Made by a program: the position numbers and the translations under genes. Under the pieces are notes generated by a model that saw only the letters and a list, made by a program, of their open reading frames with translations, had not been told where the DNA came from and did no database searches. From the NCBI GenBank assembly GCA_023653055.1, contig JAMNXR010000002.1, forward strand, positions 62,001 through 126,000: a stretch of DNA of 64,000 bases, read 5' to 3'. Numbering within the stretch: the first letter of the stretch is position 1; each line of letters opens with the position of its first letter. Shown piece after piece: positions 9,868-57,499 of the stretch. This DNA is from Burkholderiaceae bacterium. Its GTDB lineage: Bacteria > Pseudomonadota > Gammaproteobacteria > Burkholderiales > Burkholderiaceae_B.

Positions 9868-11426
9868 AAAACGGGTCCTTGAGCTTGGAAGTGTTGCCAG
9901 TTTTTTCTGATCGCACTGAGGTTATAGTTGGCGCCAAGCGGAATGTATGGGACCTGATCAAGAACCTCGACCTGGATAGCTTGGCAGATTTTTTGTCGTG
10001 CTTGCAGTGTGTCAGCAAAAAACCAATCCATCCTCAAGGCTTCAAGCGTGGGGTTGGTTGGCCAGCCAAACCAGCCCTGGTTGCCCGTTCCGCGCATACC
10101 GAGATTGGAGGCTGGATCGAGGTTGCTCGTACCCGTAAGCGCAGTAAAGGCAACGTTCCAACCTCCAGCCTGCGGCAGGTCTTGATTGTTACGACGTTGC
10201 AAATACGTGCCCCAATTCATCGGTCGCAATTCTGTCTTGAGACCTAACTGCTTGAATAAATCTTCTGTGACCAGTGCACAGGCGTGATAGGGCGCGGCAT
10301 CGACGGGATCCAGAATAACGATGGTCTCCCCTTTGTATCCGGATTCTTTAATGCGCTTGCGTGCACGTGCCATGTCGCGCTTGCCGTTGAGCTTCTCCAT
10401 ACCGGCTTCGGAGGCCATCGGCGTTCCTGGCGCAAAGACACCACATTGGGCATTCCAGTATTCGGGAAAATCCGCACCATTGGCTGCCATCATAAAGTCA
10501 GACTGACTGATCACTGACAAAATGGCGCGACGCATCTCCACGTTGTCAAAAGGCGCGTGCAGATGATTAAAACGCATGATGAAAATCGAAGGTAGCGCGC
10601 TTTTAATCAATTCGATGCGGGGGTTTTTGCGCAGCATCGGGATAAAGTCGTTATCAACTAACTCAATGCCATCGACTTCGTTATTTTGAAGCGCCGCAAC
10701 GGCGGTGGCACGATCGGGGATGATGAGCCATTTAAGCGAGTCGATATGCGTGATCTTTGGGCCTGCAGTGTTGCTGGCGATACCATCGGGCCGTGGCACA
10801 TAGTCAGAGGCTTTGGTGTATTCGACCTTAGAGCCTGAGACCCATTGTTCGGGCAAAAACCTGAATGGACCACTACCCACCATTTCCTTGATTGCGACAT
10901 TGTCCGGGGTGTTGGCCAGTCGTTCAGGCATGACGGAGGCAGAGGCGGAGGCGAGGGTGTAGGGCAGCAGTGAAAACGGTCTGCTTAGAGATATTTTTAC
11001 AGTCGTGGCGTCGCTTGCCACAATCTCTGTCACGAGACTAAAAAGCGTTTGCCCCAGCAAATTACGTTTACCAAATCTTTTTAGGCTAGCCACAACATCT
11101 TGGGCCTCAACTGGACTGCCGTCGTGAAAGCGCAAGGCCTGACGCAAGGTCAATGTCCATTGGAGCCGATTTCCACTGAGTTCAACACGCTCAACCATCT
11201 GTGGCTGAGGCTGATATTGAGCATCGAGACCAAATAGCGTGTCAAACACCTGCATAGCATGACAGGCCGTAATCGCTGCGGTCGTGAAAACAGGATCCAA
11301 CACTGAGAGGTCAGTCGAAGGCACCCAGCGAAAGGTGACGGTCGGTGTTTGTGCGGATAGCTTGAATGGCGAACTCAACAGGCCCGCTGTAGTGCCTGTT
11401 GTGGTGAGAAAAGTGCGGCGATCCAT
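9846..11426 (-). CDS. ABC transporter substrate-binding protein, family 5 (orphan, Tat-type signal)
   Basis: Extracytoplasmic peptide/nickel-type binding protein (SBP_bac_5) of 526 residues. The N-terminus MDRRTFLTTTGTTAGLL resembles a Tat signal (RR-x-F-L). Family 5 features include WTLTLRQALRFHDGSPVEAQDVVASLKR near residue 100 and NNEVDGIELV near 230. It is closely related along its whole length to the binding protein at 26516-28114, sharing for example the blocks ATAVAAL, NNEVDG, RFNHLHAPF, GYKGET and ILDPVD. No permease or ATPase gene is adjacent, so it may feed the importer encoded at 22.8-26.5 kb. Its 3' end overlaps the RND pump gene by 22 bases on the opposite strand. Confidence 0.9.
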   Translation of the reverse strand: MDRRTFLTTTGTTAGLLSSPFKLSAQTPTVTFRWVPSTDLSVLDPVFTTAAITACHAMQVFDTLFGLDAQYQPQPQMVERVELSGNRLQWTLTLRQALRFHDGSPVEAQDVVASLKRFGKRNLLGQTLFSLVTEIVASDATTVKISLSRPFSLLPYTLASASASVMPERLANTPDNVAIKEMVGSGPFRFLPEQWVSGSKVEYTKASDYVPRPDGIASNTAGPKITHIDSLKWLIIPDRATAVAALQNNEVDGIELVDNDFIPMLRKNPRIELIKSALPSIFIMRFNHLHAPFDNVEMRRAILSVISQSDFMMAANGADFPEYWNAQCGVFAPGTPMASEAGMEKLNGKRDMARARKRIKESGYKGETIVILDPVDAAPYHACALVTEDLFKQLGLKTELRPMNWGTYLQRRNNQDLPQAGGWNVAFTALTGTSNLDPASNLGMRGTGNQGWFGWPTNPTLEALRMDWFFADTLQARQKICQAIQVEVLDQVPYIPLGANYNLSAIRKNWQHFQAQGPVFYTLRST

Positions 11427-11465: not shown

Positions 11466-13145
11466 CTAAGGCGCAAGGCTCCAAAGATTGCCAGTCAGCG
11501 TGGCACGTGCTTCGATACGTAATTTTTCCAAATGTGCCAACAAGGATTTTTGCGCAACCGCATGCAAACGCTCTGGTGTGTCCTCATATGCGATTTTGAC
11601 TAAGACCTCTAGTGGCGCAGGTTGTCCCGCACGTTTGAGTGCAGCCATCACTTTATTTTCACGCTCTTGTCTGTGAATCAAAATACGGTCAACATTTTCG
11701 GCAGACTTGTCCATTAGAAAACCATGGCCTGGCGCGAGGTAGTCTATTTTGTAATCAAGTAGCAACCGTAAGGAGGCCAGATATTCAATCATGTCTCCAT
11801 CCGGCGGGCTGATGACCACCGTGGAGCCTTGCATAATGTGGTCACCCGTAAATAAAAGATTTTGTGACTCCAGCAAAAAGCAGACTTGATTCGAGGCGTG
11901 ACCCGGCGTGTGCAGGACACGAATCGCATGGCCCGCGATATCGAGTCGTTCCTGGTGCGTGACAACGTGATCAGGCCTGAAGGTCTGATCTTGATTGGGA
12001 AAAGCGGGCGCAGGCATGCCATAGACTGCTGCGCCTGTACGCTGCTTAAGCAAGGCGGCAGCGGGCGAGTGATCTAAATGCGTATGCGTGCACAAAATCC
12101 ATCGGATTGGACCTGGCGCGGCTGTGATCAAGGCCTCAATGTGTGTCTCGAGCAGCGGACCAGGGTCGATGACGGCGACGCCTTGTTCGGCATTGCCGAT
12201 CAGATAGCTGTTGGTGCCAGGCCCTGTCATCATGCCGGGATTGGCAGCGGTTAAACGCAAGACGTCTTGTCCGATCGTCACAGCTTGACCCGGTTCGATA
12301 AACGCGCGAAGGGTACCTTGATTGTCGAGGTCGAGCTTTTTAATTTCGGCGTAGGCAAAGTCCCCCGGAATCAACGTGTGCGATACACCTGAGCGATCAA
12401 CCCCAGTCACGGGTGCCATCACCTGTTTTGGACGGGGCTTGCGCGCGTACTCTAGTAATTCCTCAACATATTTAAATGGAGCCAAGCTTTCGAGCGTTTT
12501 AATTGTGGGGAACATCAGATTGAGTGTGCCCGACCTATGCAAGTCAATGGCTTGATCGGGACGTACCCAGAGTTGTCCAACCGTTTCATGGTTATCTTGA
12601 AGGGCTGTTTGTCCCTCAGGGGCTTGAGCCACAAAAAATCGCGTGTCGTAACGTCTTGGACGTCCGGCTTGGGTGACCCAATGACTGTAATAGGCGATAC
12701 GGTCAGTCGCTGCTTGAACTTGCTCTTGCAGCAAAATATCCATAAAAGACAACTTGCTCTGTGCCATATCCACGCGCAGCGCAGCCAGACGTTCCGCTTC
12801 GTGTGCGGCTAGTTGTAGGAGTTGGTCGCTGCCGCGATAACCCAGCAGCAAGCCCGACTCTTCAAAACACTCTCTAATTGCTGCAATCCAGTAGGCCAGA
12901 CCGCCTTGCTCAATACCGAGTGTTTCGCTAGCCGCTTTGTCATCTAGTCCGACGCAAAGAGAAGCGATCTCAGGATGGTGGTCAGCGCGATCGAGTGCAC
13001 CTCCCGGAAAAACATGCATGCCCTTGGCAAACTCAACGGCGGTGGTGCGTTCCATCATGAAGACTTCGATGCCATCGCTGACATTGCGTGCGAGAATGAC
13101 AGTGGCGGCGGGGCGGGGGACGGCTGGAGGCGTTGTGCTACTCAT
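11466..13145 (-). CDS. NUDIX hydrolase-metallo-beta-lactamase fusion protein
   Basis: Two-domain protein of 559 residues from the ATG at 13145. The N-terminal part (about 1-240) is NUDIX-like, with PAATVILAR, the GMHVFPGGALD segment and a Nudix-box core RECFEESGLLLG. The C-terminal part (about 260-480) is a metallo-beta-lactamase fold of the LACTB2/glyoxalase II group, with the zinc motif THTHLDHS, then HTPGHASNQVCF, FTGDHIMQG and APGHG. A winged-helix-like tail follows, as in LACTB2 relatives. The ATG lies one base after the stop of the nitrile hydratase-like alpha gene, which argues for co-transcription. An in-frame upstream Met at 13175 would overlap that gene and is less likely. Substrate unknown; hydrolysis of nucleotide, CoA or thioester compounds is possible. 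Confidence 0.88.
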   Translation of the reverse strand: MSSTTPPAVPRPAATVILARNVSDGIEVFMMERTTAVEFAKGMHVFPGGALDRADHHPEIASLCVGLDDKAASETLGIEQGGLAYWIAAIRECFEESGLLLGYRGSDQLLQLAAHEAERLAALRVDMAQSKLSFMDILLQEQVQAATDRIAYYSHWVTQAGRPRRYDTRFFVAQAPEGQTALQDNHETVGQLWVRPDQAIDLHRSGTLNLMFPTIKTLESLAPFKYVEELLEYARKPRPKQVMAPVTGVDRSGVSHTLIPGDFAYAEIKKLDLDNQGTLRAFIEPGQAVTIGQDVLRLTAANPGMMTGPGTNSYLIGNAEQGVAVIDPGPLLETHIEALITAAPGPIRWILCTHTHLDHSPAAALLKQRTGAAVYGMPAPAFPNQDQTFRPDHVVTHQERLDIAGHAIRVLHTPGHASNQVCFLLESQNLLFTGDHIMQGSTVVISPPDGDMIEYLASLRLLLDYKIDYLAPGHGFLMDKSAENVDRILIHRQERENKVMAALKRAGQPAPLEVLVKIAYEDTPERLHAVAQKSLLAHLEKLRIEARATLTGNLWSLAP

Positions 13146-13146
13146 T

Positions 13147-13839
13147 TCAAGCGAGCGCTGGAGTCGATGCGGCACTCAGCGGAAGCGACGTCCCAATCAT
13201 CGAGTCGCGCGTGACAAGCGCAGCCAACTCAGCCTCACTGAACCCCTCGGTGCCTGCTGGTTGATAGGGCAACACTAAAAATCTTAAGTCAGCTGTGCTG
13301 TCCGAGACGCGGACCTCGACATCATCGGGTAAATGCGTGCCAAACTCAGCGAGCACCTTGCGTGGTTCGACGACAACGCGCGAGCGATAGTCGATTGACT
13401 TGTACCAAGCTGGTGGAATGCCAAGCAGCATACGCGGGTAGCAAGAACACAGCGTGCAGACCACTACGTTGTGAACCGTTGGTGTGTTTTCCAACACGAC
13501 GAGATCAAGCGGCGTTGTGATGTCTAGCTCAAAAGATTCGTTGATCGTCTTGAGGGGGTCGGCCAGCAATTTCTTTTTAAACACAGGATCAAGCCAAGCT
13601 TTGGCGACGATTTTTCCGCCAATAGCAGGCGTCAAGCTATCCTGATAGTCAATTTGTCTGTGTAGCGCATCGGCAGTGATGATGCCTTTTTCATCCAGTA
13701 ATTCTCGAATGGCTGTTTGAAGCAAAACCTCGTAACGATCGTACTGGTCATCGTCGTCGGGAGCCGGTGGCGAGTGAGGATGTGCATGATCGTGATCGTG
13801 ATCATGGTGATCATGGTGGTGGCTGTGTGAAGAACTCAT
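13147..13839 (-). CDS. Cobalt-type nitrile hydratase alpha / thiocyanate hydrolase gamma-like subunit
   Basis: Metal-binding catalytic subunit of 230 residues. The claw motif C128-T-L-C131-S-C133 followed by Tyr-Pro-Arg136 is the cobalt-type signature (iron enzymes have C-S-L-C-S-C). The rest matches the alpha fold: GGKIVAKAWLDP near residue 70, PPAWYKS, YRSRVV and EPRKVLAEFG after the claw, and PAGTEGFSEAELAALVTRD near 205. Arg after CYP, rather than the Trp usual in cobalt nitrile hydratases, is a feature I associate with thiocyanate hydrolase gamma. The first 22 residues contain 11 histidines. The start overlaps the preceding gene by four bases. The reaction could be hydration of a nitrile to an amide or hydrolysis of thiocyanate; the sequence alone does not decide. 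Confidence 0.88.
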   Translation of the reverse strand: MSSSHSHHHDHHDHDHDHAHPHSPPAPDDDDQYDRYEVLLQTAIRELLDEKGIITADALHRQIDYQDSLTPAIGGKIVAKAWLDPVFKKKLLADPLKTINESFELDITTPLDLVVLENTPTVHNVVVCTLCSCYPRMLLGIPPAWYKSIDYRSRVVVEPRKVLAEFGTHLPDDVEVRVSDSTADLRFLVLPYQPAGTEGFSEAELAALVTRDSMIGTSLPLSAASTPALA

Positions 13840-14159
13840 ACTTTTTTTACTCCAGCGATGGGGTCAAGCCAGTGCTCGAAAATATCGGCGACGACGGTGT
13901 CATTGGGACCGCCTGTGTATTCTGGCCAGACGTCTTTTTGTTTAAAGCGGACGCGATACAGCACCCGCATCGGTAAACCTGGCTTGTGAAACGCTAACAA
14001 TGAGGGGTCCCGAAAGCATCCACGTACTTCAGCGATTTCTCCGATCGCACCTCTTAAATAAAAGGGCGTACGGCAGTGGACTTCCGGAGGTTGCTTGCGT
14101 ATGACAACAGGTGTACCCGCAGGTAAGGCTTGTCCAGGACGAGGTTCAATCGCGTTCAT
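13836..14159 (-). CDS. Nitrile hydratase beta C-terminal (SH3-like) / thiocyanate hydrolase alpha-like subunit
   Basis: Protein of 107 residues that corresponds only to the C-terminal SH3-like half of a nitrile hydratase beta chain. Recognisable blocks are the RTPFYLRGAIGEI segment near residues 34-46, with the conserved Arg in RTPxYxRG, then VLYRVRFKQKDVWPEY and DTVVADIFEHWLDP. Start and stop each overlap the neighbouring genes by four bases (ATGA), giving tight translational coupling. In ordinary nitrile hydratases this half is fused to the N-terminal half encoded here by the upstream gene. Separate genes are typical of thiocyanate hydrolase (scnB-scnA-scnC order) and of three-subunit nitrile hydratases. 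Confidence 0.85.
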   Translation of the reverse strand: MNAIEPRPGQALPAGTPVVIRKQPPEVHCRTPFYLRGAIGEIAEVRGCFRDPSLLAFHKPGLPMRVLYRVRFKQKDVWPEYTGGPNDTVVADIFEHWLDPIAGVKKV

Positions 14160-14482
14160 AACGTGCCCGTTTGTTTAAAGCGTTCTCGCAAGACCTCGAT
14201 GCGGTCATCGATTTCTTTTGCCGTCAATAATTGTTGCTCGATGACGAGGTCGCGCACAGCGCGGATCCATTTGTCGTAATACAACATGCTTTTGTAGTCT
14301 GCTTCGGTGTTGGACTCAATGGCGCGTCGCATGGCGTCAGACGTAAAGGCCTGTAATTTTCCGCCAGTCAAAAGTTTTTGCAGGGCATCGACACGCTTTT
14401 CATGGAGCGTGCTGGGATGCTCGTCAAGACAGACCGGCCCTGCCGGTTGTCCACCTAGGTCATTTACCTTTCTTTCAGTCAT
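14156..14482 (-). CDS. Nitrile hydratase beta N-terminal / thiocyanate hydrolase beta-like subunit
   Basis: Protein of 108 residues matching the N-terminal helical half of nitrile hydratase beta. It has NDLGGQPAGPV at residues 7-17, a helix ending in MRRAIESNTEADY, and the YYDKWIRAVRDLVIEQQLLT block near 68-87, which parallels the family pattern YYexWlxAlexllvekgvlt. It is the first gene of the four-gene - strand operon and ends with a four-base overlap with the SH3-half gene. A weak GAGAG lies before the ATG at 14482. Nitrile hydratase accessory proteins are distant homologues of this fold, so an activator role is an alternative, though the gene order favours a structural subunit. Confidence 0.8.
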   Translation of the reverse strand: MTERKVNDLGGQPAGPVCLDEHPSTLHEKRVDALQKLLTGGKLQAFTSDAMRRAIESNTEADYKSMLYYDKWIRAVRDLVIEQQLLTAKEIDDRIEVLRERFKQTGTL

Positions 14483-14639
14483 TCTGGACTCTCATATCAA
14501 CATGCTGAGGATAGAAGCTATTTTTACACCTATTTAGCCTAGACTGTCTTGTGGTTTGGTGGTTGTTGAGCAAAATATTTATGCTAAAAGATCACAGCAA
14601 TCACCCCATTTCAGAATTGAATCTTTTGAGGATGTCTCC

Positions 14640-15281
14640 GTGAGCGATTATTTTTACGAACCCAGCAAAGGCCATGGCCTGCCACATAACCCTTTTAAAG
14701 CCATCGTGGCGCCACGTCCGATCGGCTGGATCTCCAGTATTGATCTGCAGGGTCGTGTCAATCTCGCGCCATATAGCTTTTTTAATGCTTTTGCTGAAAC
14801 ACCACCTGTGATTGGTTTCTGTACCAGCCATGTCCGCAAAGACAGCGTCAACAATATTGATGCAACAGGCGAGTTTGTCGCGAACTTCTGCGGTGCAGAG
14901 CTCGCTCAAGAAATGAACATTAGCTCAGCTTCTGTTGACCCGGGCGTGGATGAGATGAAATTGGCAGGCCTCGATGCGGCTGCCTCTACGCTGGTCAAAC
15001 CGCCGCGTATCGCGCGTGCGATTGCTGCGCTTGAATGTAAGCTGATTAGTACGACTCAGCTCAAAAATGCCAAAGGCGAATTGATCGATACATGGCTCAC
15101 ACTAGGTGAAGTGGTCGGTGTGCACATTAATGATGAGTTTCTTAAGGACGGCATCTTTGATACCGCTGCAGCTCGGCCACTCGGTCGTTGTGGCTACAAG
15201 GGTGACTATGTCGAGGTCAATACCTTGTTTGAGATGATTCGTCCAAAAGAGTACACCCCTGCGAAGTCATCAGGCGGTTGA
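14640..15281 (+). CDS. Flavin reductase-like FMN-binding protein
   Basis: Cytoplasmic flavoprotein of about 213 residues in the flavin reductase/DIM6-NTAB family (split-barrel FMN binding). Supporting segments are IVAPRPIGWISS near residue 24, NLAPYSFFNAFAETPPVIGF near 42 and GEFVANFCGAELA. I choose the GTG at 14640 because GAGGA at 14628-14632 is spaced 7 bases away and the protein then starts just before the conserved fold; the frame extends to 14556. It is divergent from the nitrile hydratase-like operon and convergent with the TauE gene. The redox partner is unknown. Confidence 0.87.
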   Translation: MSDYFYEPSKGHGLPHNPFKAIVAPRPIGWISSIDLQGRVNLAPYSFFNAFAETPPVIGFCTSHVRKDSVNNIDATGEFVANFCGAELAQEMNISSASVDPGVDEMKLAGLDAAASTLVKPPRIARAIAALECKLISTTQLKNAKGELIDTWLTLGEVVGVHINDEFLKDGIFDTAAARPLGRCGYKGDYVEVNTLFEMIRPKEYTPAKSSGG

Positions 15282-15286
15282 GTGTG

Positions 15287-15316
15287 TGAAAAGATTAGCC
15301 TGGGATCAGGCTAATC
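15287..15316 (-). terminator. Intrinsic terminator overlapping the TauE/SafE stop
   Basis: A perfect 10-bp inverted repeat, GATTAGCCTG (15293-15302) and CAGGCTAATC (15307-15316), has a 4-base loop and is followed on the - strand by CTTTTC. The stem includes the last codons and the TAA stop of the TauE/SafE gene. It should end that transcript in the short gap before the convergent flavin reductase gene. Confidence 0.75.
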
Positions 15317-16053
15317 GCTCTAAAGGCGGTCGCGGCACCCAGTAGGAGTAGGCTAATAAAGAAGTAGCGGCGAAACTGCTCCTGCGGAATTTTCTTTCTT
15401 AGAAACTGCCCCACAAATACGCCTATAAATGCAGGCGCTAAGGCCAGTAACGAGGCCGTGGCGATCTCGACCTCATATTCACCGGTGATCAACAGACCGA
15501 TTGCGAGGGCGAGCGAGGCGACCGTAAACCCCAAGCCAAGCGCTTGAATGAGTTCATCGCGTTTGAGCTCAAGTGCCGTGAAGTACGGTGCGAGGGGCAG
15601 GGCGGCAATGCCTGTCGCGCCAGATAATACCCCGGTCATCAGGCCCATGAGCGGTGAGGACCATCGCTCTGCGCGCGTAGAGACCTTGATCCGCGCAGCG
15701 GATAAGCCATAGAGTCCATACGCCATCAGCACAAACCCCAGACCAGCGGTCACGATGGCTGTTTGACCACTCACGATAAAACTCACGCCAAAAGGTGTGC
15801 CGCAACAAATGCCTAGCAACAGAAATTTAAATCTTTTGAGCAACGCGATAAAGTTAGGGCCTGAGAACAGCTGCCAAATATTGGTGATGAGTGAGGGCAG
15901 TACCAGCATCGCGGCGGCCTCAACAGGCGCGACGATCAGTCCGAGGAGTCCAATGGCAATGGTCGGCAGCCCCATGCCGATGACGCCTTTGACGAGTCCG
16001 GCAAGGATAAAAATGAAAGCGACAAGGGTCAGTGAAAGAATCGAGTCAGTCAT
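15295..16053 (-). CDS. TauE/SafE-family membrane permease
   Basis: Integral membrane protein of 252 residues with about 7-8 hydrophobic helices. It belongs to the TauE/SafE (former DUF81) family, members of which export sulfite, sulfoacetate or other organic anions. Typical features are the early FILAGLVKGVIGMGLP segment and its repeat in the second half, LMGLMTGVLSGATGIAALPL, reflecting the internal duplication. The gene is divergent from a TauD-like dioxygenase, so a link to sulfonate metabolism is possible. The family is broad, however, and the substrate is unproven. Its 3' end forms part of a strong terminator hairpin. Confidence 0.88.
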   Translation of the reverse strand: MTDSILSLTLVAFIFILAGLVKGVIGMGLPTIAIGLLGLIVAPVEAAAMLVLPSLITNIWQLFSGPNFIALLKRFKFLLLGICCGTPFGVSFIVSGQTAIVTAGLGFVLMAYGLYGLSAARIKVSTRAERWSSPLMGLMTGVLSGATGIAALPLAPYFTALELKRDELIQALGLGFTVASLALAIGLLITGEYEVEIATASLLALAPAFIGVFVGQFLRKKIPQEQFRRYFFISLLLLGAATAFRAISLIPG

Positions 16054-19336: not shown

Positions 19337-20599
19337 TCAGGCCAGTGCGGACGAGCGGTAGCGTTCTTTTTCTTTAGTCATATCCGGTAAGAACCAGGCG
19401 ACGACACCCAGGATTGGCAGAAAGGAACAGATCTTGTACACAACGGCAATGCCATACACATCTGCAAGACCTCCCATCACTGCAGCACCCAAGCCTCCAA
19501 GTCCAAAAGCAAAACCAAAGAACATACCCGACACAAAGCCGATACGTCCGGGCATGACTTCGTGTGCATACACCAGCACAGCCGGAAAGGCAGATGCCGT
19601 CAGTAAGCCAATGATGATCGTCAGCACACCTGTCCAAAACAGATCAGCATAAGGCATCGCCATCGTAAAGGGCAACACACCAAGTATAGAAATCCAGATC
19701 ATGGGACGACGACCAATACGATCGGTGAGTGCGCCGCCCACTAGCGTTCCGACAGCAATCGCAGCCATAAAAATAAATAGCTGCACTTGCGCAGCCTGCA
19801 CGGGTAGATCAAAGCGTTCGATCAAATAAAAAGTAAAAAAGGAAGTGAGGCTTGAGGTATAGACGTTTTTGGAAAACAACAGCACCATCAGGACTGTAAT
19901 GAGAAAAAGCACGCGCGCGCGAGGAATGCCAGAGTCTTTAGATTCTATTGTGTCTCGGACGGCTTTGATGGTTGGACGTAGATTCGCCCCGTACCACATG
20001 CCGACTCGAGTTAAAAATGCCATCGCAACTAAGGCTGCCATCGACACCCAGGCGATCGCGCCCTGACCGTATGGCAAGATGATGAAAGCTGCGAGTAAGG
20101 GGCCAATAGCTTGCCCTGCATTGCCGCCTACTTGAAACAACGCTTGAGCAGTGCCGTAGCGACCACCCGAAGCCATGCGTGCCACGCGGGAAGCTTCTGG
20201 ATGAAATATGGCCGAGCCCGTCCCGACCAACGCTGCTGCGATCAGGACCATGGTGTAGCTGCCCGCGACCGATAGCAGCAACAAACCAATCAACGTAGAA
20301 CCCATGCCGATTGCTAAAGAATAAGGCTGTGGTTTTTTGTCAGTGTAAAAGCCAACTGTTGGCTGAAGTAAGGATGCGGTTAATTGAAACGCAAGCGTGA
20401 TAAGCCCAATCTGTGCAAAGTCGAGATTAAATTCTGTTTTGAGCAGAGGGTATAGCGCGGGGATAAGCGATTGAATGAGGTCATTGAGCAAATGACAAAA
20501 ACTCAAAGACAGCAAAATCGGCATCGTCGCCGCCTGTGCACTCACAGTGTTTGACGCGGTGAGGGGAGCTTCTGCAGGGGCGGCGACGGTCTTAGTCAT
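19337..20599 (-). CDS. MFS transporter (Fsr/fosmidomycin-resistance type)
   Basis: Inner-membrane carrier of 420 residues with 12 helices. The N-terminal LSFCHLLNDLIQSLIPALYPLL is characteristic of the Fsr branch, and motif A loops are GFYTDKKPQPY in the first half and GGALTDRIGRRPMIW in the second. It is last in a probable three-gene operon, 21 bases after the Bug gene and downstream of a D-cysteine desulfhydrase-like gene. Members have been linked to fosmidomycin and other drug export, but in this context import or export of a metabolite is equally possible. Confidence 0.88.
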   Translation of the reverse strand: MTKTVAAPAEAPLTASNTVSAQAATMPILLSLSFCHLLNDLIQSLIPALYPLLKTEFNLDFAQIGLITLAFQLTASLLQPTVGFYTDKKPQPYSLAIGMGSTLIGLLLLSVAGSYTMVLIAAALVGTGSAIFHPEASRVARMASGGRYGTAQALFQVGGNAGQAIGPLLAAFIILPYGQGAIAWVSMAALVAMAFLTRVGMWYGANLRPTIKAVRDTIESKDSGIPRARVLFLITVLMVLLFSKNVYTSSLTSFFTFYLIERFDLPVQAAQVQLFIFMAAIAVGTLVGGALTDRIGRRPMIWISILGVLPFTMAMPYADLFWTGVLTIIIGLLTASAFPAVLVYAHEVMPGRIGFVSGMFFGFAFGLGGLGAAVMGGLADVYGIAVVYKICSFLPILGVVAWFLPDMTKEKERYRSSALA

Positions 20600-20620: not shown

Positions 20621-21586
20621 TTATTGAGCAGTAACCTTGGCTGTTTTGATGACAGTGCCCCACTTGTCGACTTCAGCCGCCAGAAATTTGCCAGTTTCGG
20701 CTGGGTTGAGCCCCATCGGTACGATACCCAGTTCGGTAAAGCGGGCAGTGATCTCAGGAGACTTGACCGCCTCGTGGACAGCTTTTGATAGCTTGTCAAC
20801 GATGGCTGCTGGTGTGCCAGGAGGCGCAAAGAACATCACCCAGCTTGACGACTCAATGGCAGGGCCACCGGATTCTTTTATCGTTGGTACGTCTGGTGCG
20901 CTGGGTAAGCGCTGATTTGAAAACATCGCGAGGGCATTCACTTTGCCGCCCTTGACATGAGGCATCATTGAGCTCGGTACGTCCACCAGCATTTGGATGT
21001 TGTTTGCCATTAAATCGGCGAGAGCAGGTGCGGTACCTTTATAGGGCACATGAATCATATTGACCCCTGCTGTGGCTTGTAGCAACTCTGAGGTCAGATG
21101 AGCAGCTGAACCTACACCCGAGGAACCATACGCCAGCTTGCCAGGGTTTGCCTTGGCATAGGCGAGCAGCTCGCTGATATTTTTGACTGGAAATTGCTTG
21201 CTTGTTGTCAAAATCAAAGGTGAAACTGCGACTAAAGAAACGGGCGCAAGCGCTTTGTGATCAAAGGGTAGTTTGCCTTCATAGAGTGTCGCATTCGCAG
21301 CGTGTGCCGTGATCACAGTCAGGATGGTGTAACCATCGGGCGCTGCTTTGGCGACAAAGTCTGCACCAATGATCGAGTTCGCACCTGGTTTGTTTTCAAT
21401 AATGATGGGCTGACCCAAAATCGTCTGGACTTTTGCGGTCACCATGCGTGTCACGTTATCTGTGTAGCCACCTGGTGTGTAGGGGACGACCCAGCGAATC
21501 GGTTTGGTTGGATAACTCTGGGCAAAGGCACTGACGGACAATGTGGCCAGTGCAGCCGCTAGCAGACCTGCTTTCAGTATTTTCAT
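20621..21586 (-). CDS. Bug-family tripartite tricarboxylate transporter receptor
   Basis: Periplasmic binding protein of 321 residues. The signal peptide ends near residue 22 (AFA before Gln). Bug motifs are present in order: PIRWVVPYTPGGYTDNVTR near 28-46, IIIENKPGANSIIGAD near 56, APDGYTILT near 78, YGSSGVGSAAHLTSELL near 148 and MIHVPYKGTAPALADLM. It lies 53 bases after the PLP enzyme gene and 21 bases before the MFS gene on the same strand. It may deliver the substrate of that enzyme, which is inference from gene order. Ligand unknown. Confidence 0.92.
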   Translation of the reverse strand: MKILKAGLLAAALATLSVSAFAQSYPTKPIRWVVPYTPGGYTDNVTRMVTAKVQTILGQPIIIENKPGANSIIGADFVAKAAPDGYTILTVITAHAANATLYEGKLPFDHKALAPVSLVAVSPLILTTSKQFPVKNISELLAYAKANPGKLAYGSSGVGSAAHLTSELLQATAGVNMIHVPYKGTAPALADLMANNIQMLVDVPSSMMPHVKGGKVNALAMFSNQRLPSAPDVPTIKESGGPAIESSSWVMFFAPPGTPAAIVDKLSKAVHEAVKSPEITARFTELGIVPMGLNPAETGKFLAAEVDKWGTVIKTAKVTAQ

Positions 21587-22820: not shown

Positions 22821-23762
22821 ATGTTTGCATACACCATCCGCCGTTTACTGTTGACATTGCCTGTCATGCTTGTGGTCGCATTGTTTGTGTATGGGCTACT
22901 CGATTTGGCGCCTGGCGATCCGGCGGTTTTTCTTGCTGGTGAGGAAGCTTCCCTCGAAGACATTGCCCGCATCAGACAGACGCTAGGTCTGGACCAGCCT
23001 TTCTATTATCGATTCACGCTGTGGCTGTTCAATGTTCTTCAGGGTGATCTGGGCAACTCCCTTTTTACAGGTGTTCCTGTTTCACAAATGATCGTGCAAC
23101 GGATGGCCCCCACGTTTACCCTAATGGTCATGACGTTGTGTATGTCTGTCTTGATCGCGATTCCCTTGGGGGCCTTGGCCGCTTGGCGACATAACAGTTC
23201 CTACGATCGCGGTGTCATGATGGTGGCCGTTTTAAGCTTTTCCATTCCGACTTTTGTAGTGGGATATATGCTGGCCTGGGCGCTGGGGATCGAAATGCGC
23301 TGGCTGCCTGTACAGGGCTATGTCCCGTATTCACAAGGCATTTGGAGCTCAATCAGGACGCTGATTCTTCCGACGTTGGCGTTGAGCAGTGTGTATGTGG
23401 CGCTCATTACACGCATTACGCGTGCCACATTACTCGAGACACTTTCACAGGATTACATCAGGACAGCCCGATCGAAAGGCGTGGGCAATCAAAATATTCT
23501 TTTTAAGCACGCACTTAAAAACGCAGCGATTCCTGTGATTACCGTGATTGGCAGTGGTGTGGCCTTACTCATCAGTGGTGCGGTCGTGACTGAGACTGTA
23601 TTTTCAATTCCTGGCTTGGGTCGTCTAACGGTTGATGCCATCCTGCGTCGCGATTATCCCATTATTCAAGGCGTGATTCTGCTCTTCAGTTTTTTATACG
23701 TCATGGTCAATCTTTTGATCGATCTGCTTTACCGTGTTTTTGATCCAAGGATTAAATACTGA
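22821..23762 (+). CDS. Peptide-type ABC transporter permease (DppB/OppB family)
   Basis: Inner-membrane permease of 313 residues with about six helices. The N-terminal MFAYTIRRLLLTLPVM is typical of OppB/DppB proteins. LAPGDPAVFLAGEEA follows helix 1. The cytoplasmic EAA loop near residue 205-225 reads QDYIRTARSKGVGNQNILFKHAL, which docks to the ATPase. It starts the five-gene operon; its stop overlaps the next start by one base (TGATG). Together with the DppC-like permease it forms the channel of a peptide, nickel or opine-type importer. Confidence 0.93.
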   Translation: MFAYTIRRLLLTLPVMLVVALFVYGLLDLAPGDPAVFLAGEEASLEDIARIRQTLGLDQPFYYRFTLWLFNVLQGDLGNSLFTGVPVSQMIVQRMAPTFTLMVMTLCMSVLIAIPLGALAAWRHNSSYDRGVMMVAVLSFSIPTFVVGYMLAWALGIEMRWLPVQGYVPYSQGIWSSIRTLILPTLALSSVYVALITRITRATLLETLSQDYIRTARSKGVGNQNILFKHALKNAAIPVITVIGSGVALLISGAVVTETVFSIPGLGRLTVDAILRRDYPIIQGVILLFSFLYVMVNLLIDLLYRVFDPRIKY

Positions 23763-24595
23763 TGAGGCGAACGTTTAAATTCTTGAGGCAATACCCAACC
23801 ATCGCGGTGGGAGGGACGTTATTATTTTTGCTCATCCTCATGGCGATTTTTGCGCCCTGGATTGCTGACAAAGATCCGATGGCACTATCGCCTATCCATC
23901 GTGCGCGGGTGCCAAGTGAAAGATTTTGGTTTGGGACGGACTTGCTTGGACGCGACGTGTTTGCCCGCGTGGTGTATGGGGCCCGTATTTCTCTTGTGGT
24001 GGGCTTTACCGTTGCCTTTTTGTCGGCGGTGATTGGCACCATTATTGGCTTGACCTCAGGCTTTGTGCGGTGGATCGATGCCATTGTGATGCGGGTGATG
24101 GATGGCTTGATGTCCATTCCTACGATTTTGCTCGCGATTGCCTTGATCGCGTTGACGCGCGCTTCCCTTGAAAATGTGATTATCGCCATCACCATTGCCG
24201 AAGTGCCCCGGGTTGTGCGTTTGGTGAGAGGCTTAGCGCTCTCTCTTCGTGAACAGCCCTACGTCGAAGCCGCCATCGCGGCGGGTGCTTCGCCAATAAG
24301 AGTGGTGTTCAAACATATCTTTCCAAATACTGTTGCCGCGTTGACGGTTCAAACTACCTATATTTGTGGCTTGGCTATTTTGGCTGAAGCGAGTTTGTCT
24401 TTTATCGGAGCGGGTGTGCCGCCATCGATTCCTTCGTGGGGCAACATTATGGCTGAAGGGCGTGCGCTCTGGCAGATCAAGCCGCATATGATCGCGTTTC
24501 CCGCTTTGTTCTTGTCCATCACGATCCTGGCAATCAATATGTTAGGTGATGGTTTGCGCGATGCCATTGATCCGCGCATGGCCAAGAGAATTTGA
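23762..24595 (+). CDS. Peptide-type ABC transporter permease (DppC/OppC family)
   Basis: Second inner-membrane permease, 277 residues, with the OppC_N segment at the start ([14 protein letters not shown]), [22 protein letters not shown] near residue 58, and the EAA loop [21 protein letters not shown] near 170. The C-terminal part carries [18 protein letters not shown], diagnostic of DppC/OppC proteins. It overlaps the DppB-like gene by one base and is followed, after a one-base gap, by the ATPase gene. It should pair with the DppB-like permease in the membrane. Confidence 0.94.
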
Positions 24596-24596
24596 T

Positions 24597-26492
24597 ATGA
24601 CACATACACCTTCACACTCCAGCAATTCGCACCGACGTGTATTAGATGTCACAGATTTGTCAGTCGTGTTCGGAACCGGCCCCAATCAAGTGCAGGCAGT
24701 CAAATCGCTGAATTTGCATGTTGACCGTGGCGAGACCTTAGCTATTGTGGGCGAGTCGGGCTCGGGCAAATCTGTAACGTCGCTTGCGCTAATGCGACTG
24801 ATTGAGTTTGGTGGTGGCACGATTACAAATGGTGAAATTCTATTTCACCGCCCGGATGGCGAGACTGTGGATATCCGGCGGGCACCCGAAGCGTTGATGA
24901 GAAGCATGCGTGGAAAAGACCTCAGCATGATTTTTCAGGAGCCGATGACCTCTTTAAATCCTGTCTTTACAGTGGGCTCTCAGATCACTGAGGCCATCGT
25001 ATTGCATCAGCGGTGTGAACAGGCTCAGGCCGATTCTGCGGCCATTCGCATCCTTGATCAGGTGCGTATTCCCGATGCAGCGGCCATGATGAAGCGCTAT
25101 CCGCATGAGTTATCGGGCGGTATGCGTCAGCGCGTGATGATTGCGATGGCGCTTTCTTGTCAGCCTTCAGTGTTGATTGCGGACGAGCCCACCACAGCGC
25201 TAGATGTCACGATACAGGCGCAGATCTTACAGTTGATCGCCGAGCTCCAAAAAGAAATGGACATGGGCGTGATCTTTATCACGCATGATATGGGGGTGGT
25301 TGCTGAAATCGCTGATCGCGTCATGGTGATGCGGCGTGGCGAAGTGGTCGAGGAAAACAATGTCTTTAATTTGTTTGCGGCGCCTCAGCATATTTATACC
25401 CAGACACTTTTGGCTGCGGTACCCAAGCTGGGTTCGATGCGAGGTATTTCACAACCCACCCGCTTCGATCTACCCATGCAAGAAGATCAAGCACAAGCAA
25501 GGCTAGCGTCAGAGCGGGCGATCAAGCACGCAACGCGCTCTGCTGATGGCACGCTTGATAGTCCTGTGATCTTAGGGGTACGTGATTTGGTGACGCGTTT
25601 CGATATTCGAGGCGGTATTTTTTCACGTGTACAGCGACGTGTTCATGCTGTTGAACACGTTTCTTTTGATTTACATGAGGGTGAAACGCTTTCCTTGGTT
25701 GGTGAGTCAGGTTGCGGCAAAACTACGACTGGACGCTCTTTGATGGGGCTGACTAAAGTCACGGGCGGGCAGGTGATTTTTGAGGGCGTACCTGTCAACT
25801 TGGCGCATGCACGTTCTTTGAAAAGCTTGCGACGCAATATGCAGTTTGTTTTTCAAGACCCCTTTGCCTCGCTCAATCCCCGGATGCGCGTGGGCGAATG
25901 TATTGCAGAGCCCATGGTCATTCAAGGGCTGGCCAGCGGCGCAGAAGCTTCGAGAAGAGTGGCGGCTTTGATGGAGCGTGTCGGCTTAGATCCCTCCACC
26001 GTTCAGCGTTGGCCGCATGAGTTTTCAGGTGGACAGCGTCAACGTATCTGTATCGCCCGCGCATTGTCGGTCAATCCCAAGGTCCTGATTGCAGACGAAG
26101 CCGTCTCTGCTTTAGATGTCTCTATTCGTGCGCAGATTGTGAATTTATTGATTGATTTGCAAGATGATCTCGGGATTTCATATCTATTTATCTCGCATGA
26201 CATGGCGGTGGTTGAACGGGTGAGTCATCGTGTGGCGGTCATGTATCTCGGACAAATTGTCGAGATCGGACCAAGACGTGCGATCTTTGAAAATCCTCAG
26301 CATCCGTATACGAAAAAATTGATGGCGGCCGTCCCGATTGCGGACCCTCTCGTCCGACGTCAACACAAACTCGAAGTTTCTGAAATTCCCAGCCCTGTCA
26401 GAGGCGTGGGTGAAAAGCCCCTTGTCGCACCGCTCGTTAGGGTGGGAGAAGGCCATTTCGTTGCAACCCATCAAGTGGGTGGCATGTATTGA
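24597..26492 (+). CDS. Double ABC ATPase (fused DppD-DppF type)
   Basis: Cytoplasmic protein of 631 residues containing two complete ABC nucleotide-binding domains. Domain 1 (about 15-280) has GESGSGKS, signature LSGGMRQR and Walker [13 protein letters not shown]. Domain 2 (about 320-590) has GESGCGKTT, signature FSGGQRQR and Walker [13 protein letters not shown]. Each is followed by the oligopeptide-transporter C-terminal extension, for example [12 protein letters not shown] in domain 2. The start is the ATG at 24597, one base after the upstream stop; the frame is open to 24546. The fusion replaces the separate DppD and DppF chains and powers the importer. Confidence 0.94.
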
Positions 26493-26515
26493 TGTGAGTT
26501 CTTAGGAGACTAATG

Positions 26516-28114
26516 ATGGATCGCAGAAAATTCTTGGTGACGTCATCCGCTACTGCAGCCGCGTTAAACTTGCCAGCAGCGTTTAAAGTCCATGCTGCTG
26601 CACCTGCAAAATTGTTTCGTTGGGTGCCGCACGCAGATTTGACGATTTTGGATCCGATGTTCAGTACGGTGTTCATCACCAACATCCATTCCCAACTCAT
26701 TTTCGACACGCTTTACGGCTTGGATAATCAGTATCAGCCGCATCCTCAGATGGCTTCGGGTCACGAGGTCGACAGCACGGGACTTATTTGGACGATCAAG
26801 CTGCGCGAGGGATTGAAGTTTCATGACGGTTCGCCCGTGCGTGCGCAGGATGCGGTCGCAAGTTTGAAGCGTTGGTCCAAAAAAGATCTAATGGGCCGCT
26901 CCTTATTTGATTCTACTGAATCCTTGACTGCACTCGATGACAAGACGCTTCAGTTCAAGCTCAAGAAACCCTTTCCATTGATACTGAATGCTATTGCTCG
27001 CCCGACAGGTAGTATGGCTTGCATCATGCCTGAAAAACTTGCAATGACGCCTGATAACGTCCAGGTCAAAGTGATGAATGGTTCAGGCCCCTTTAAGTTT
27101 GTACATGATCAGTGGGTGTCAGGCTCTCAGGCCGTTTATCAAAAGTTTAATGAATACGTACCGAGCAGTAATAAGCTCAAACCGGAGTTCACGTCAGGTC
27201 CCAAGCTTGTGCATATCGAGCAGGTGAAATGGCAAATCATCCCTGATAGTGCAACCGCAGTCGCCGCTCTTCGCAATAACGAGGTCGATGGCGTCGAGCA
27301 TATTGATGCTGACTTTTTGCCTGTTCTGAAAAAAGATCGCAACATTACACTTATCAAGCGGACCTTGCCGTCGATTTCCTTGATGCGTTTCAATCACCTG
27401 CATGCGCCGTTTAATAACAAATTGATGCGACAAGCAATTTTGTCTGTCGTCAGTCAGACCGAATACATGATGGCGATGAATGGCCCTGACTTTCCGGAGT
27501 TCTGGAACGATAAGTGCGGCGTGTTTGTCCCCGATTCACCTATGAGTAGTGATGGTGGGATGGAAAAGCTGTTGGGTAAGCGCGATCTCAATAAAGCGCG
27601 CGCGATGATCAAAGAAGCCGGCTACAAAGGCGAGACGGTCGTCATTCTTGATCCTGTTGATTACCCAGCATTTCACACGGCAGCACTTGTCACAGCAGAT
27701 TTGTTTAAACAACTAGGGATCAAAACAGATGTGCAGGCGATGAACTGGGGCACGCTCATGCAGCGGCGCAATAGTCAGGAGCCGCCCTCAGCAGGGGGAT
27801 GGAATGTTGCGTTTACCGCGACAACGGGCCCCAACAATCTGGATCCCGCAGGTCATCTCGCGATTCGAGGCCTTGGACTCAAAAGTTGGTTTGGTTGGCC
27901 GACCAGTGAACGTATCGAGCAGTTGCGCACCGACTGGTTTAACGCCACATCGCTCCAGGAACAAAAGCGAATTTGTCGCGAGCTACAAATCCAAGTGTTT
28001 GAGGATGTGCCATACATTCCTTTGGGCGCCACATATCCTGTTTCGGCGATCCGTAAGGAATGGGTAGACTTTCAGCCTCAGATGCCACTTTTTTATACCT
28101 TGCGTAAAGTTTAA
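26516..28114 (+). CDS. ABC transporter substrate-binding protein, family 5 (Tat-type signal)
   Basis: Binding component of the peptide-type importer, 532 residues. I place the start at the second of two adjacent ATG codons (26516) because AGGAGA at 26504-26509 is then 6 bases away; the first (26513) is only 3 bases away. MDRRKFLVTSSATAAAL resembles a Tat signal, which implies export in folded form. Family 5 hallmarks are LREGLKFHDGSPVRAQDAVASLKR near residue 100 and NNEVDGVEHI near 260. It is 23 bases after the ATPase and precedes an M81 metallopeptidase, so the ligand may be a peptide or peptide-like compound. It has a close paralogue at 9846-11426. Confidence 0.93.
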   Translation: MDRRKFLVTSSATAAALNLPAAFKVHAAAPAKLFRWVPHADLTILDPMFSTVFITNIHSQLIFDTLYGLDNQYQPHPQMASGHEVDSTGLIWTIKLREGLKFHDGSPVRAQDAVASLKRWSKKDLMGRSLFDSTESLTALDDKTLQFKLKKPFPLILNAIARPTGSMACIMPEKLAMTPDNVQVKVMNGSGPFKFVHDQWVSGSQAVYQKFNEYVPSSNKLKPEFTSGPKLVHIEQVKWQIIPDSATAVAALRNNEVDGVEHIDADFLPVLKKDRNITLIKRTLPSISLMRFNHLHAPFNNKLMRQAILSVVSQTEYMMAMNGPDFPEFWNDKCGVFVPDSPMSSDGGMEKLLGKRDLNKARAMIKEAGYKGETVVILDPVDYPAFHTAALVTADLFKQLGIKTDVQAMNWGTLMQRRNSQEPPSAGGWNVAFTATTGPNNLDPAGHLAIRGLGLKSWFGWPTSERIEQLRTDWFNATSLQEQKRICRELQIQVFEDVPYIPLGATYPVSAIRKEWVDFQPQMPLFYTLRKV

Positions 28115-28134
28115 TTTCCGGAGTATTGCTTAAC

Positions 28135-29661
28135 ATGAAAAAGAACCCTAAGGTCGCCATTGCTGGCTTTGCACTGGAGGCGAATAGCTTTTCGCCAGTT
28201 TCTACGAGAGAGGATTTTGAAAAGTCATGTTGGCATGAGGGCGCCATCATCACCGAACTCGCTCGTCAGACCAGTAATTTGCCTGCGGAGGTGACGGGGT
28301 TTTATGCGCGTATGGATGAAAAGGGTCCCTGGACGCCGGTTCCCACTATTGTGATTGGTGCGCCACCAGGAGGGCCTGTTGTCGAAGCCGTATGGACCGA
28401 GTTCATGGAAAAACTCGAACACAGTCTGCGCGCAGCCCTGCCACTGGATGCCGTCTATGTGTCGAATCATGGTGCCTCAAGTGCCGAGCATCTCGACGAT
28501 ACCGAAGGCGACATGATGACTTTGATCCGAGGCATCGTTGGACCAGATGTTCCTGTGATCGCCACACATGATTTGCACTGCAATGTTTCTGAGCGCACGG
28601 TCGATGCGTTGGATGCTCTGATTAGCTACCGAACGAATCCTCACGTTGATCAGCGAGAGCGGGCGGCAGAAGCTGCGGATCTGTTAGAAGAAATGCTAGG
28701 TGGGATGAAAACGCAAAAGGCATTTATTCGCATGCCAATTACGCCACCCTCCGTGACCTTGCTGACTGCACGCGGACCGTATGCGGATCTCGTCAATATG
28801 GGCACAGCGATGATGCAAACGCCTGCGCAGGGGCCAATTGCTAACGTGTCCGTTTCGGCTGGCTTTGTCTTTTCTGATTTGCCAAAGTGTGGTATGACGA
28901 TTTGCGTGACGTCGCGTGGAAATTTGGCGGCGGCTCAAGCCTGCGCGCTAAAGCTTGCACGTGCAGCGTGGGCAGATCGTGCGCGTTATGTGCCGGATAT
29001 GCTAGAGATTCCTGAGGCGATCAACAAAGCGCAACACACCACGGTACCGCTTTTATTTGCAGATGTTGCAGATAATCCCGGTGGTGGTGGTCGTGGCAAT
29101 ACCTCTTGGCTGTTGGCAGCCTTTAATGCAGCCAAGATCCCAGGTGTGTTGTTGGGTGTTTTCATCGATACCGAGCTTGCACAACAGGCTCACCAGGCGG
29201 GCGTGGGACGTGAATTCGACGCCGTCTTCAATGCGACGGAAAGCCAGTTTTCAAAGCGTTTCACTGGACGTGCGCGGGTGCTCAAGCTCACCGACGGTGA
29301 GGGCTTGGGGCGTCGCGGTATTTTGCGAGGCAAAAAGTTTTCGTTAGGACCCTCTGCGCTGATTGAGTTGGTCGACACCGGTACGCGGGTAGTGGTTGGA
29401 AGTTTGCGACGACAGCTCTGTGATCCAGCCATGCTTGAAATGCACGGAATTGATATCGCAACCGTCAGGATACTCATTGTCAAGAGTCGCGGCCATTACA
29501 GAGCCGGCTTTGATGAGTTCTTCCCGGAGTCGCAGATTTTTGACGTTGACAGCCCCGGATTGACAACGCCGAATCTTAAAAACGTGGACTTTAAACGTTT
29601 GCCCAGACCAGTGTTTCCGATCGATCAAGATGCCACGTGGACAGAACCCGCTTGGTCTTAA
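28135..29661 (+). CDS. M81-family metallopeptidase (microcystinase C, MlrC-like)
   Basis: Predicted zinc peptidase of 508 residues in the M81 family. MlrC of this family cleaves the linear and tetrapeptide products of microcystin. Features are the N-terminal AIAGFALEANSFSP, NHGASSAEHLDDTEGDMM near residue 105-122, and the putative metal ligands in ATHDLHCNVSE and SYRTNPHVDQRERA near 145-180. DVADNPGGGGRGNT near 308 is a family signature. The start is the ATG at 28135, preceded by CCGGAG, rather than a TTG at 28126. It ends the importer operon, suggesting intracellular cleavage of the imported compound. Many homologues sit in ordinary catabolic clusters, so microcystin is not implied. Confidence 0.9.
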   Translation: MKKNPKVAIAGFALEANSFSPVSTREDFEKSCWHEGAIITELARQTSNLPAEVTGFYARMDEKGPWTPVPTIVIGAPPGGPVVEAVWTEFMEKLEHSLRAALPLDAVYVSNHGASSAEHLDDTEGDMMTLIRGIVGPDVPVIATHDLHCNVSERTVDALDALISYRTNPHVDQRERAAEAADLLEEMLGGMKTQKAFIRMPITPPSVTLLTARGPYADLVNMGTAMMQTPAQGPIANVSVSAGFVFSDLPKCGMTICVTSRGNLAAAQACALKLARAAWADRARYVPDMLEIPEAINKAQHTTVPLLFADVADNPGGGGRGNTSWLLAAFNAAKIPGVLLGVFIDTELAQQAHQAGVGREFDAVFNATESQFSKRFTGRARVLKLTDGEGLGRRGILRGKKFSLGPSALIELVDTGTRVVVGSLRRQLCDPAMLEMHGIDIATVRILIVKSRGHYRAGFDEFFPESQIFDVDSPGLTTPNLKNVDFKRLPRPVFPIDQDATWTEPAWS

Positions 29662-56089: not shown

Positions 56090-57499
56090 TTAGACAGAGG
56101 GGCACGCTTGATGCCAGGTCGTGTCGCGTTGATACGCATCTGCAATGTTCAGGATGATACGTTCTTCAAAGGGTTTACCCACCAGTTGAAATGCTAAAGG
56201 CATTTTGCGGTTTGAAAAGCCAGCGGGCACACTCATCGCCGGAAGTCCTAAATAATTAATCGCCCGATTCGTATAGGTCAGCTGACTGATAGACTGAAGA
56301 ACATTGTCGAGATCGCCTGAAGTTGTTGCCGCGATTGTGGGCATATGTGCGCGTGCAACCGGGATATGCAAGGCATCACAGTCCCCTAGGCACAAGTGCA
56401 TGTACTCTTTCAAGAATTGATCTCTGGCACGGAGCGCTTCGACATATGCAATGCCGGATTGTTGAAAACCCGGCGCAATACGAGCGCGCACTTGATCACT
56501 ATAGTCTTCGGGCCGTTGCTCAAACCATTTTTGATGGATCTGTCCGGCTTCGGCCGTCAAGACAATCGCAATCATGTCGTGCATACGCAGCATGTCAGGC
56601 ACCTTGACCGCAACAAGTGTGGCGCCACGGCCTTTTAACACTTCCAAACTGTCTTCCAACGCTGCTGCCATTTCAGGCTCTAAATTTTCACGATAAAAGT
56701 CTTGTGGAACGCCAATCCGCATGCCCTTCAAATCCCCCGTCAAGGCATCTTCATAATCTTCATTTTGACGCTGCGTACACCAGGGATCATTCGGGTTTGG
56801 ACGACTGATCTGTGTCAATAATCGGGCACAGTCGCGGGCAGATTGCGCCAGAGGTCCGACGCAGTCCAAGGTATGTGAAAGGGGAAACACACCGTCGATA
56901 CTGACGCGTTTTGAGGTGGGTTTAATTCCCGTGACACCGCACATAAAAGCCGGTTGTCGAATGGAGCCCCCTGTATCACTGCCAAGAGAACCAAAGACGA
57001 GTCTAGCTGCCACAGCAATCCCTGAGCCGCTCGATGACCCGCCACAGGGATAGTCAGGATTCCATGGATTCAAACCATGGCCGTAATGACCGTTAAATCC
57101 TGTTGGACTCATTGCAAATTCAGCCATGTGCAGACTGCCCAGGTTGACTTGACCCGCTGCGTCCAGCTCATCGATGACCCAGGCGTTTTTCTTTGCAATA
57201 TTACCTTTCAAAATTTTGGAGCCGGCATGCATTTCTTTGCCTGCGACTTCAATAAGATCTTTGTGCGCCAAGGGGACACCGTGCAGAGGGCCTAGGATGA
57301 GACCACTCGCTTGGAGCGCGTCAAGTGCCTTTGCGCGCTGGAGTGCTTCTTCATGATCAATCCGAAAAACTGCATTGTATTGACGACCAATTGTTTCTAA
57401 TCTGTTGAGCGACCATGTCGTCAATTCAGTGGAAGTGAATTCTTTTTTCGCAATACCATCTGCTGCATGCACAAGGTCTAAATGTTCAAACTGACTCAT
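56090..57499 (-). CDS. Amidase-signature-family amidohydrolase
   Basis: Amidase of 469 residues with the Ser-cisSer-Lys triad. The Lys is in VPLAHKDLIEVAGKEMHAGS near residue 80, the Ser region is CGGSSSGSGIAVAA near 152, and the nucleophile loop is GSDTGGSIRQPAFMCGVTGIKPT near 172-194. It hydrolyses an amide to acid plus ammonia; GatA also belongs here, but the gene context is catabolic and no gatB or gatC is present. It is first in the operon, 35 bases before the dioxygenase. An inverted repeat lies upstream at 57529-57551. Confidence 0.93.
   Translation of the reverse strand: MSQFEHLDLVHAADGIAKKEFTSTELTTWSLNRLETIGRQYNAVFRIDHEEALQRAKALDALQASGLILGPLHGVPLAHKDLIEVAGKEMHAGSKILKGNIAKKNAWVIDELDAAGQVNLGSLHMAEFAMSPTGFNGHYGHGLNPWNPDYPCGGSSSGSGIAVAARLVFGSLGSDTGGSIRQPAFMCGVTGIKPTSKRVSIDGVFPLSHTLDCVGPLAQSARDCARLLTQISRPNPNDPWCTQRQNEDYEDALTGDLKGMRIGVPQDFYRENLEPEMAAALEDSLEVLKGRGATLVAVKVPDMLRMHDMIAIVLTAEAGQIHQKWFEQRPEDYSDQVRARIAPGFQQSGIAYVEALRARDQFLKEYMHLCLGDCDALHIPVARAHMPTIAATTSGDLDNVLQSISQLTYTNRAINYLGLPAMSVPAGFSNRKMPLAFQLVGKPFEERIILNIADAYQRDTTWHQACPSV

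Follow-up and report, generated by a model that had tools for sequence, protein, structure and literature searches.

A further probable three-subunit nitrile hydratase in a Burkholderiaceae genome, and Arg136 as a mark of its whole branch rather than of thiocyanate hydrolases

To our knowledge, the natural substrate is still open for many nitrile hydratases. The toyocamycin nitrile hydratase ToyJKL acts on toyocamycin in antibiotic biosynthesis. The ToyJKL enzyme of Streptomyces rimosus is an (alpha beta gamma)2 hexamer with subunits of 21.2, 10 and 11.4 kDa (PMC8574189), and ToyJ alone has been reported to be active (PMC7329996). The same paper describes ScNHase of Streptomyces canus CGMCC 13662, a cobalt enzyme encoded in the order anhD-anhE-anhA, in which AnhD and AnhE represent the N and C parts of a beta chain, no activator gene is present and AnhD acts as a chaperone (PMC7329996). 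Its subunits are given there as 10.41, 11.35 and 21.33 kDa and its substrates as acetamiprid, thiacloprid and BN, which we read as benzonitrile, while the two-subunit enzyme of Pseudomonas putida is stated to need the activator P14K (PMC7329996).

A gene cluster with the same general plan was found in a Burkholderiaceae genome (G000; 2.84 Mb in 30 contigs, 95% complete), in a stretch of 64,000 nucleotides (G000:C4:62001-126000) referred to here as the window, the features of which are as follows.

14482-14156, minus strand: bN, 108 aa, separate protein corresponding to the helical N-terminal half of a nitrile hydratase beta chain (scnB / anhD position)
14159-13836, minus strand: bC, 107 aa, SH3-like C-terminal half of a nitrile hydratase beta chain (scnA / anhE position)
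13839-13147, minus strand: catalytic alpha/gamma-type subunit (alpha), 230 aa
13432-13458, minus strand: codons of the metal claw and Y-P-R (C128 to R136), read from the sequence
11466-13175, minus strand: NUDIX/metallo-beta-lactamase fusion, downstream of alpha
14556-15281, plus strand: flavin-reductase-domain gene, divergent

The initial annotation had proposed a beta chain encoded as two proteins with ATGA overlaps, and this holds: the bN/bC and bC/alpha junctions are two 4-base ATGA overlaps, and the products match NHase_beta_N (PF21006, 1.1e-13), NHase_beta_C (PF02211, 1.3e-19) and NHase_alpha (PF02979, 3.9e-74), each family having its single match in the genome within this cluster. Likewise, the order N-half, C-half, catalytic subunit is that of scnB-scnA-scnC, as had been noted, and it recurs in the thiocyanate hydrolase (SCNase) loci L057-L063. 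The catalytic subunit has a His/Asp-rich N-terminus and carries the claw CTLCSCYPR, or C128-T-L-C131-S-C133-Y134-P135-R136; the three cysteines had been annotated as such, and their numbering is identical to that of SCNase gamma in PDB 2dd4_C, in comparison with which PDB 3vyg_C has Trp at 136.

The same three genes are present in Zwartia hollandica, Zwartia vadi and uncultured relatives. PF02979 matches occur in 11 genomes of the genus, counting the window genome: six have the split type with Arg (G000, G060, G108, G127, G144, G159), two the Trp type (G086, G173) and one the Fe type (G026), and two show short fragments only (G184, G194). Genes 88-91% identical to the window alpha also occur in a metagenome-assembled genome (MAG) record titled Bordetella parapertussis (L037, L055), a label that is probably wrong.

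The genes around the cluster are partly shared with these relatives. The flavin-reductase-domain gene stands beside it in most Zwartia-type loci. A possible ATG of the NUDIX/lactamase gene lies at 13145, one base past the alpha stop, and this gene directly follows alpha in L030-L033 as well; it may be co-transcribed with alpha and is a candidate neighbour whose membership in the system is putative. Alpha and the NUDIX/lactamase gene are separated by about 3.7 kb with ABC genes in L029 (6769-9196) and L046; these have a phosphonate-like look and are absent from the window. Farther along the window, a D-cysteate sulfo-lyase CuyA is encoded at 22656-21640 on the minus strand (483.6 bits against an NCBIfam cut-off of 450), near an MFS transporter gene (19337-20599) and a receptor-like gene (20621-21586), and a TauE/SafE gene is present at 15295-16053; this suggests sulfonate use beside the hydratase genes. 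The plus-strand stretch 22821-29661 holds peptide-type ABC transporter genes, with SBP_bac_5 at 26513-28114 and with permeases and an ATPase identified from the list of ORFs, and then an M81/MlrC-like metallopeptidase gene at 28126-29661.

We consider it likely that bN-bC-alpha encodes a cobalt nitrile hydratase with three subunits and no activator, of the type represented by ToyJKL and AnhDEA. The window alpha scores higher against the nitrile hydratase alpha family TIGR01323 (238.8 bits, cut-off 249.85) than against the thiocyanate hydrolase gamma family TIGR03887 (212.5 bits, cut-off 291.45), and neither curated NCBIfam equivalog accepts it; the TIGR01323 cut-off may not be a defining limit for enzymes such as ToyJKL and AnhDEA. 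TIGR03889, the activator family of two-subunit enzymes, exceeds its cut-off in the Trp-type genomes G086 and G173; it had no match in G000 or G127 and only a weak match, on the bN gene, in G159. This family is blind to P15K, as it gave no match in the P15K-bearing genome G248; a separate P15K query matched in G248 and G275 and gave no match in G000, G127 or G159. With G000 being 95% complete, an activator gene could be missed there.

By the chemistry of the family, alpha would coordinate Co(III) with its three claw cysteines together with two amides of the backbone, the conserved arginines of bN (Arg52) and bC (in HCR) would hold the oxidised cysteines, and, as we infer, metal-activated water would hydrate R-CN to R-CONH2. 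Because no activator gene was found, bN probably also serves as a chaperone for metal and subunit swapping, the function reported for AnhD. A role of bN as a mere stand-alone activator was ruled out, as the genome has no other beta-N match and a beta chain cannot be made from bC alone.

The phylogeny of the catalytic subunit places the window protein outside the two-subunit enzymes. In a tree of 106 catalytic subunits, the rows of which came from Burkholderiales genomes, relatives found with the window protein and plasmid hits and thus represent no census, 77 rows with Arg or Lys at position 136 split from 29 Trp or Fe-type rows with support 99/90, the bootstrap being not quite settled (0.988). 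Because these classes are named by residue 136 itself, independent support comes from the gene order, described below, and from a tree with position 136 masked and seven long rows removed, in which 72 Arg/Lys rows again separate from 27 others (support 96/95). The window falls within a 22-row clade (support 100/98; the window row and L001 are the same locus), and the Arg/Lys branch also holds L087, a locus on a Streptomyces plasmid. The SCNases form a clade of their own on a long stem, comprising seven loci over the SCNase cut-off and 2dd4_C (support 100/100), with the window outside.

The presence of Arg136 after Cys-Tyr-Pro in place of Trp had been taken as a feature of thiocyanate hydrolase gamma. 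Arginine is indeed found here in 8/8 SCNases, but it also occupies the position in 67 of the other 69 rows of the branch (Lys in the remaining two), so the argument fails, while all 23 non-Fe rows outside the Arg/Lys branch have Trp. Because the 77-row branch holds only eight SCNases, Arg136 is a mark of the whole three-subunit branch and not of SCNases. As a mark of thiocyanate hydrolysis it was rejected: 8/77 branch rows are SCNases, and the branch stands with position 136 masked. Literature searches on thiocyanate hydrolase with Arg136, and with substrate pocket or arginine, returned nothing on the residue or on the enzyme, respectively. Genes of the Arg branch should not, then, be named thiocyanate hydrolases from the residue after Cys-Tyr-Pro. 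In eight annotated plasmid relatives, SH3-like domain-containing protein is the sole name given to 15 of the 16 beta halves. We make no claim that Arg136 occurs in all three-subunit enzymes, since S. canus may have Leu there. The docking residues Tyr108, Lys121 and Arg160 named for that enzyme (PMC7329996) would fit Y134, K147 and R186 of the window alpha at an offset of 26, which would put Leu110 of S. canus at position 136.

Operons of some relatives offer a testable route to the natural substrate. In three loci from one genus of the same family (L122, L126, L129), genes for a solute-binding protein, two permease-like ORFs and an ABC ATPase precede bN-bC-alpha, and a gene for an isochorismatase-fold hydrolase lies immediately 3' of alpha. 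A Ferrovibrio MAG (L039) has the hydrolase 0.9 kb downstream, with only the ABC ATPase identified upstream; L034 has it 3.7 kb upstream of the cluster; and L038 retains the transporter, with a binding protein that shares 72% identity with that of L126. A tally of ABC ATPases across loci was set aside, because the probe can match any ABC ATPase. The hydrolase was seen with 5/22 window-clade rows, several other loci ending short, and the five proteins are mutually 55-75% identical. That of L126 (5342-5974) is nearest to N-carbamoylsarcosine amidohydrolase (7e-53), with no NCBIfam model over its cut-off; the binding protein of the same locus (10100-11182) is distantly like PotD and 2-aminoethylphosphonate binders, far under the cut-offs. 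A literature search on nitrile hydratase with N-carbamoylsarcosine found nothing. In these relatives, the amide would be hydrolysed by the isochorismatase-fold amidohydrolase (nitrile to amide to acid), a pathway that would gain nitrogen from an imported nitrile. It may not be ancestral, since the hydrolase accompanies only 5/22 rows and L040 and L041, the first branch of the window clade, have housekeeping genes downstream.

No such ABC transporter or hydrolase gene lies beside the cluster in the window. The best isochorismatase relative in the window genome shares 34-37% identity with those hydrolases, and a search there with the L038 binding protein, run without a positive control, gave no match, so the window lineage appears to lack those partners. 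A search of the same genome for CbiM found none. It could be speculated that a PF01425 amidase encoded at 56090-57499 of the window serves as amide hydrolase.

Residues of the presumed pocket bear on the kind of nitrile. Beta position 92 (window Arg53) is Arg in 8/8 SCNases and in 56/67 other split rows, with Lys in a further six, and is never Arg in Trp or Fe rows. Judged by the extra arginines at alpha 136 and beta 92, the substrate is probably a nitrile of polar or anionic character. A broader proposal, which we regard as rather doubtful, is that the enzymes with a split beta constitute a single ancient branch, with a pocket that, through arginines at alpha 136 and beta 92, would accept anionic nitriles such as cyano-carboxylates, some members feeding a carboxylate-amide hydrolase, and that thiocyanate hydrolase would be a late member that added the beta 90 arginine and P15K. 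If this were true, the window enzyme would be the entry to a cyano-acid pathway of freshwater bacteria that has so far gone uncharacterised.

Thiocyanate hydrolysis by the window enzyme itself is possible but not favoured. Arg136 would then hold SCN-, with carbonyl sulfide and ammonia as products, and the enzyme would be an SCNase or would act on thiocyanate and nitriles alike. Gene order and Arg136 are the same as in SCNases, the beta 92 arginine is shared, and an AU test did not reject the window clade and the SCNases as one clade (p = 0.295). We nevertheless judge this reading improbable, as alpha falls short of the TIGR03887 cut-off by 79 bits and bN, at 108 aa, is shorter than 2dd4_B with its 157 aa. 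At beta position 90, Arg occurs in 8/8 SCNases, in 0/67 other split rows (one gapped), in 0/21 Trp and in 0/6 Fe rows, and the window has Met51 in its place. Beta Arg90 and alpha/gamma Arg136 presumably shape the thiocyanate pocket, and we take beta Arg90 to have a role in selectivity. A P15K-like gene lies downstream in 6/7 loci over the SCNase cut-off (L057-L062), whereas the P15K query had no match in the window genome; the seventh locus, L063, shows none within its 3.6 kb, so P15K is not universal in SCNases. Moreover, an amide-cleaving enzyme, as encoded in some relatives, would suit a nitrile hydratase and be of no use to an SCNase, because the SCNase product is carbonyl sulfide. The initial annotation had left thiocyanate hydrolysis and a three-subunit nitrile hydratase side by side; the nitrile hydratase is now the best supported, by its branch and the lack of an activator hit, and thiocyanate the weaker, by TIGR03887, Met51 and the lack of P15K.

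Hydration of a very small compound, e.g., of cyanamide to urea or of hydrogen cyanide to formamide, in a detoxifying or nitrogen-gaining role, appears less probable still. An aquaporin-like gene adjoins the three-subunit genes in 8/49 Arg/Lys loci with flanks (L045, L087, L088, L089, L091, L132, L134, L135) and in 0/11 Trp loci, some genomes counting twice; mostly it comes with a cobalt transporter (HoxN or CbtA/CbtB), in some cases with DUF302. An aquaporin could pass small neutral solutes, and its presence points to such a solute in that branch; a small substrate would also be in keeping with the hydrolase seen in some relatives, whose closest match is an N-carbamoyl amidohydrolase. However, the aquaporin loci belong to another branch, no aquaporin match was found in window-clade loci, and the relatives' transporter with its solute-binding protein points to a larger solute.

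The initial annotation had named a sequencing error as a conceivable cause of the split beta chain. In a gene-order survey of 76 Arg/Lys-type rows (seven SCNase loci included, the window locus counted twice as its own row and L001, and weak bN-profile matches on alpha taken as noise), a fused beta gene was found in 0/76. Three separate adjacent genes were found in 71, a count that includes L120, whose order is unsure, and L091, read with its annotation; the other five comprise two loci cut by a contig edge (L037, L078), two bN-alpha fusions (L047, L050) and one unresolved locus (L119). Between the window and L029, dN/dS is 0.017 for bN, 0.032 for bC and 0.026 for alpha, synonymous sites being mostly saturated in more distant pairs; the three genes are under strong purifying selection. 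Because relatives share the split and the genes are so constrained, the split is no sequencing error.

Trp-type loci (n = 20) have a fused beta in 17 cases and a split beta in three, and Fe-type loci a fused beta in 6/6. The three exceptions, L048 (6739-7400), L115 (5303-5961) and L116 (6598-7256), combine a split beta with Trp136 and an activator-like gene; they contradict the rule that every split beta is accompanied by Arg, and the split seems to have arisen, or to have been undone, more than once. In two Roseomonas loci, L047 (5485-6552) and L050 (5245-6552), bN and alpha are fused as one protein with no bC adjoining; the apparent bC-less enzyme there is partly explained by the single bC that each of these genomes holds elsewhere, in a regular bN-bC-alpha cluster. 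A frameshift or sequencing error that broke the beta gene of an ordinary two-subunit nitrile hydratase, for which the split genes within the Trp branch might speak, is already refuted by the conservation of three adjacent genes and their low dN/dS, and the window alpha moreover lies outside the Trp branch.

Compared with known systems, the cluster shares with ScnBAC of Thiobacillus thioparus (PDB 2dd4) the split beta, the gene order, the claw, Arg136 and beta Arg91 and Arg92, whereas ScnBAC differs in having beta Arg90, an insert in alpha ahead of the claw and a bN of greater length, and the P15K-like gene carried by its relatives L057-L062 was not found in the window genome. The two-subunit cobalt enzyme of Pseudomonas putida (PDB 3qxe) belongs to the same family, with the claw CTLCSCYP and a conserved beta arginine in common, but it has Trp at 136 and a fused beta; neither a fused beta nor an activator was found in the window genome. 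ToyJKL, compared by its published description, has three subunits of similar sizes. ScNHase, likewise compared by description, agrees in its three subunits, the order N-half, C-half, catalytic subunit and the lack of an activator gene, although it is actinobacterial. The window enzyme is thus a further example, as judged from its genes, of a known three-subunit kind, and the fresh point is the corrected meaning of Arg136.
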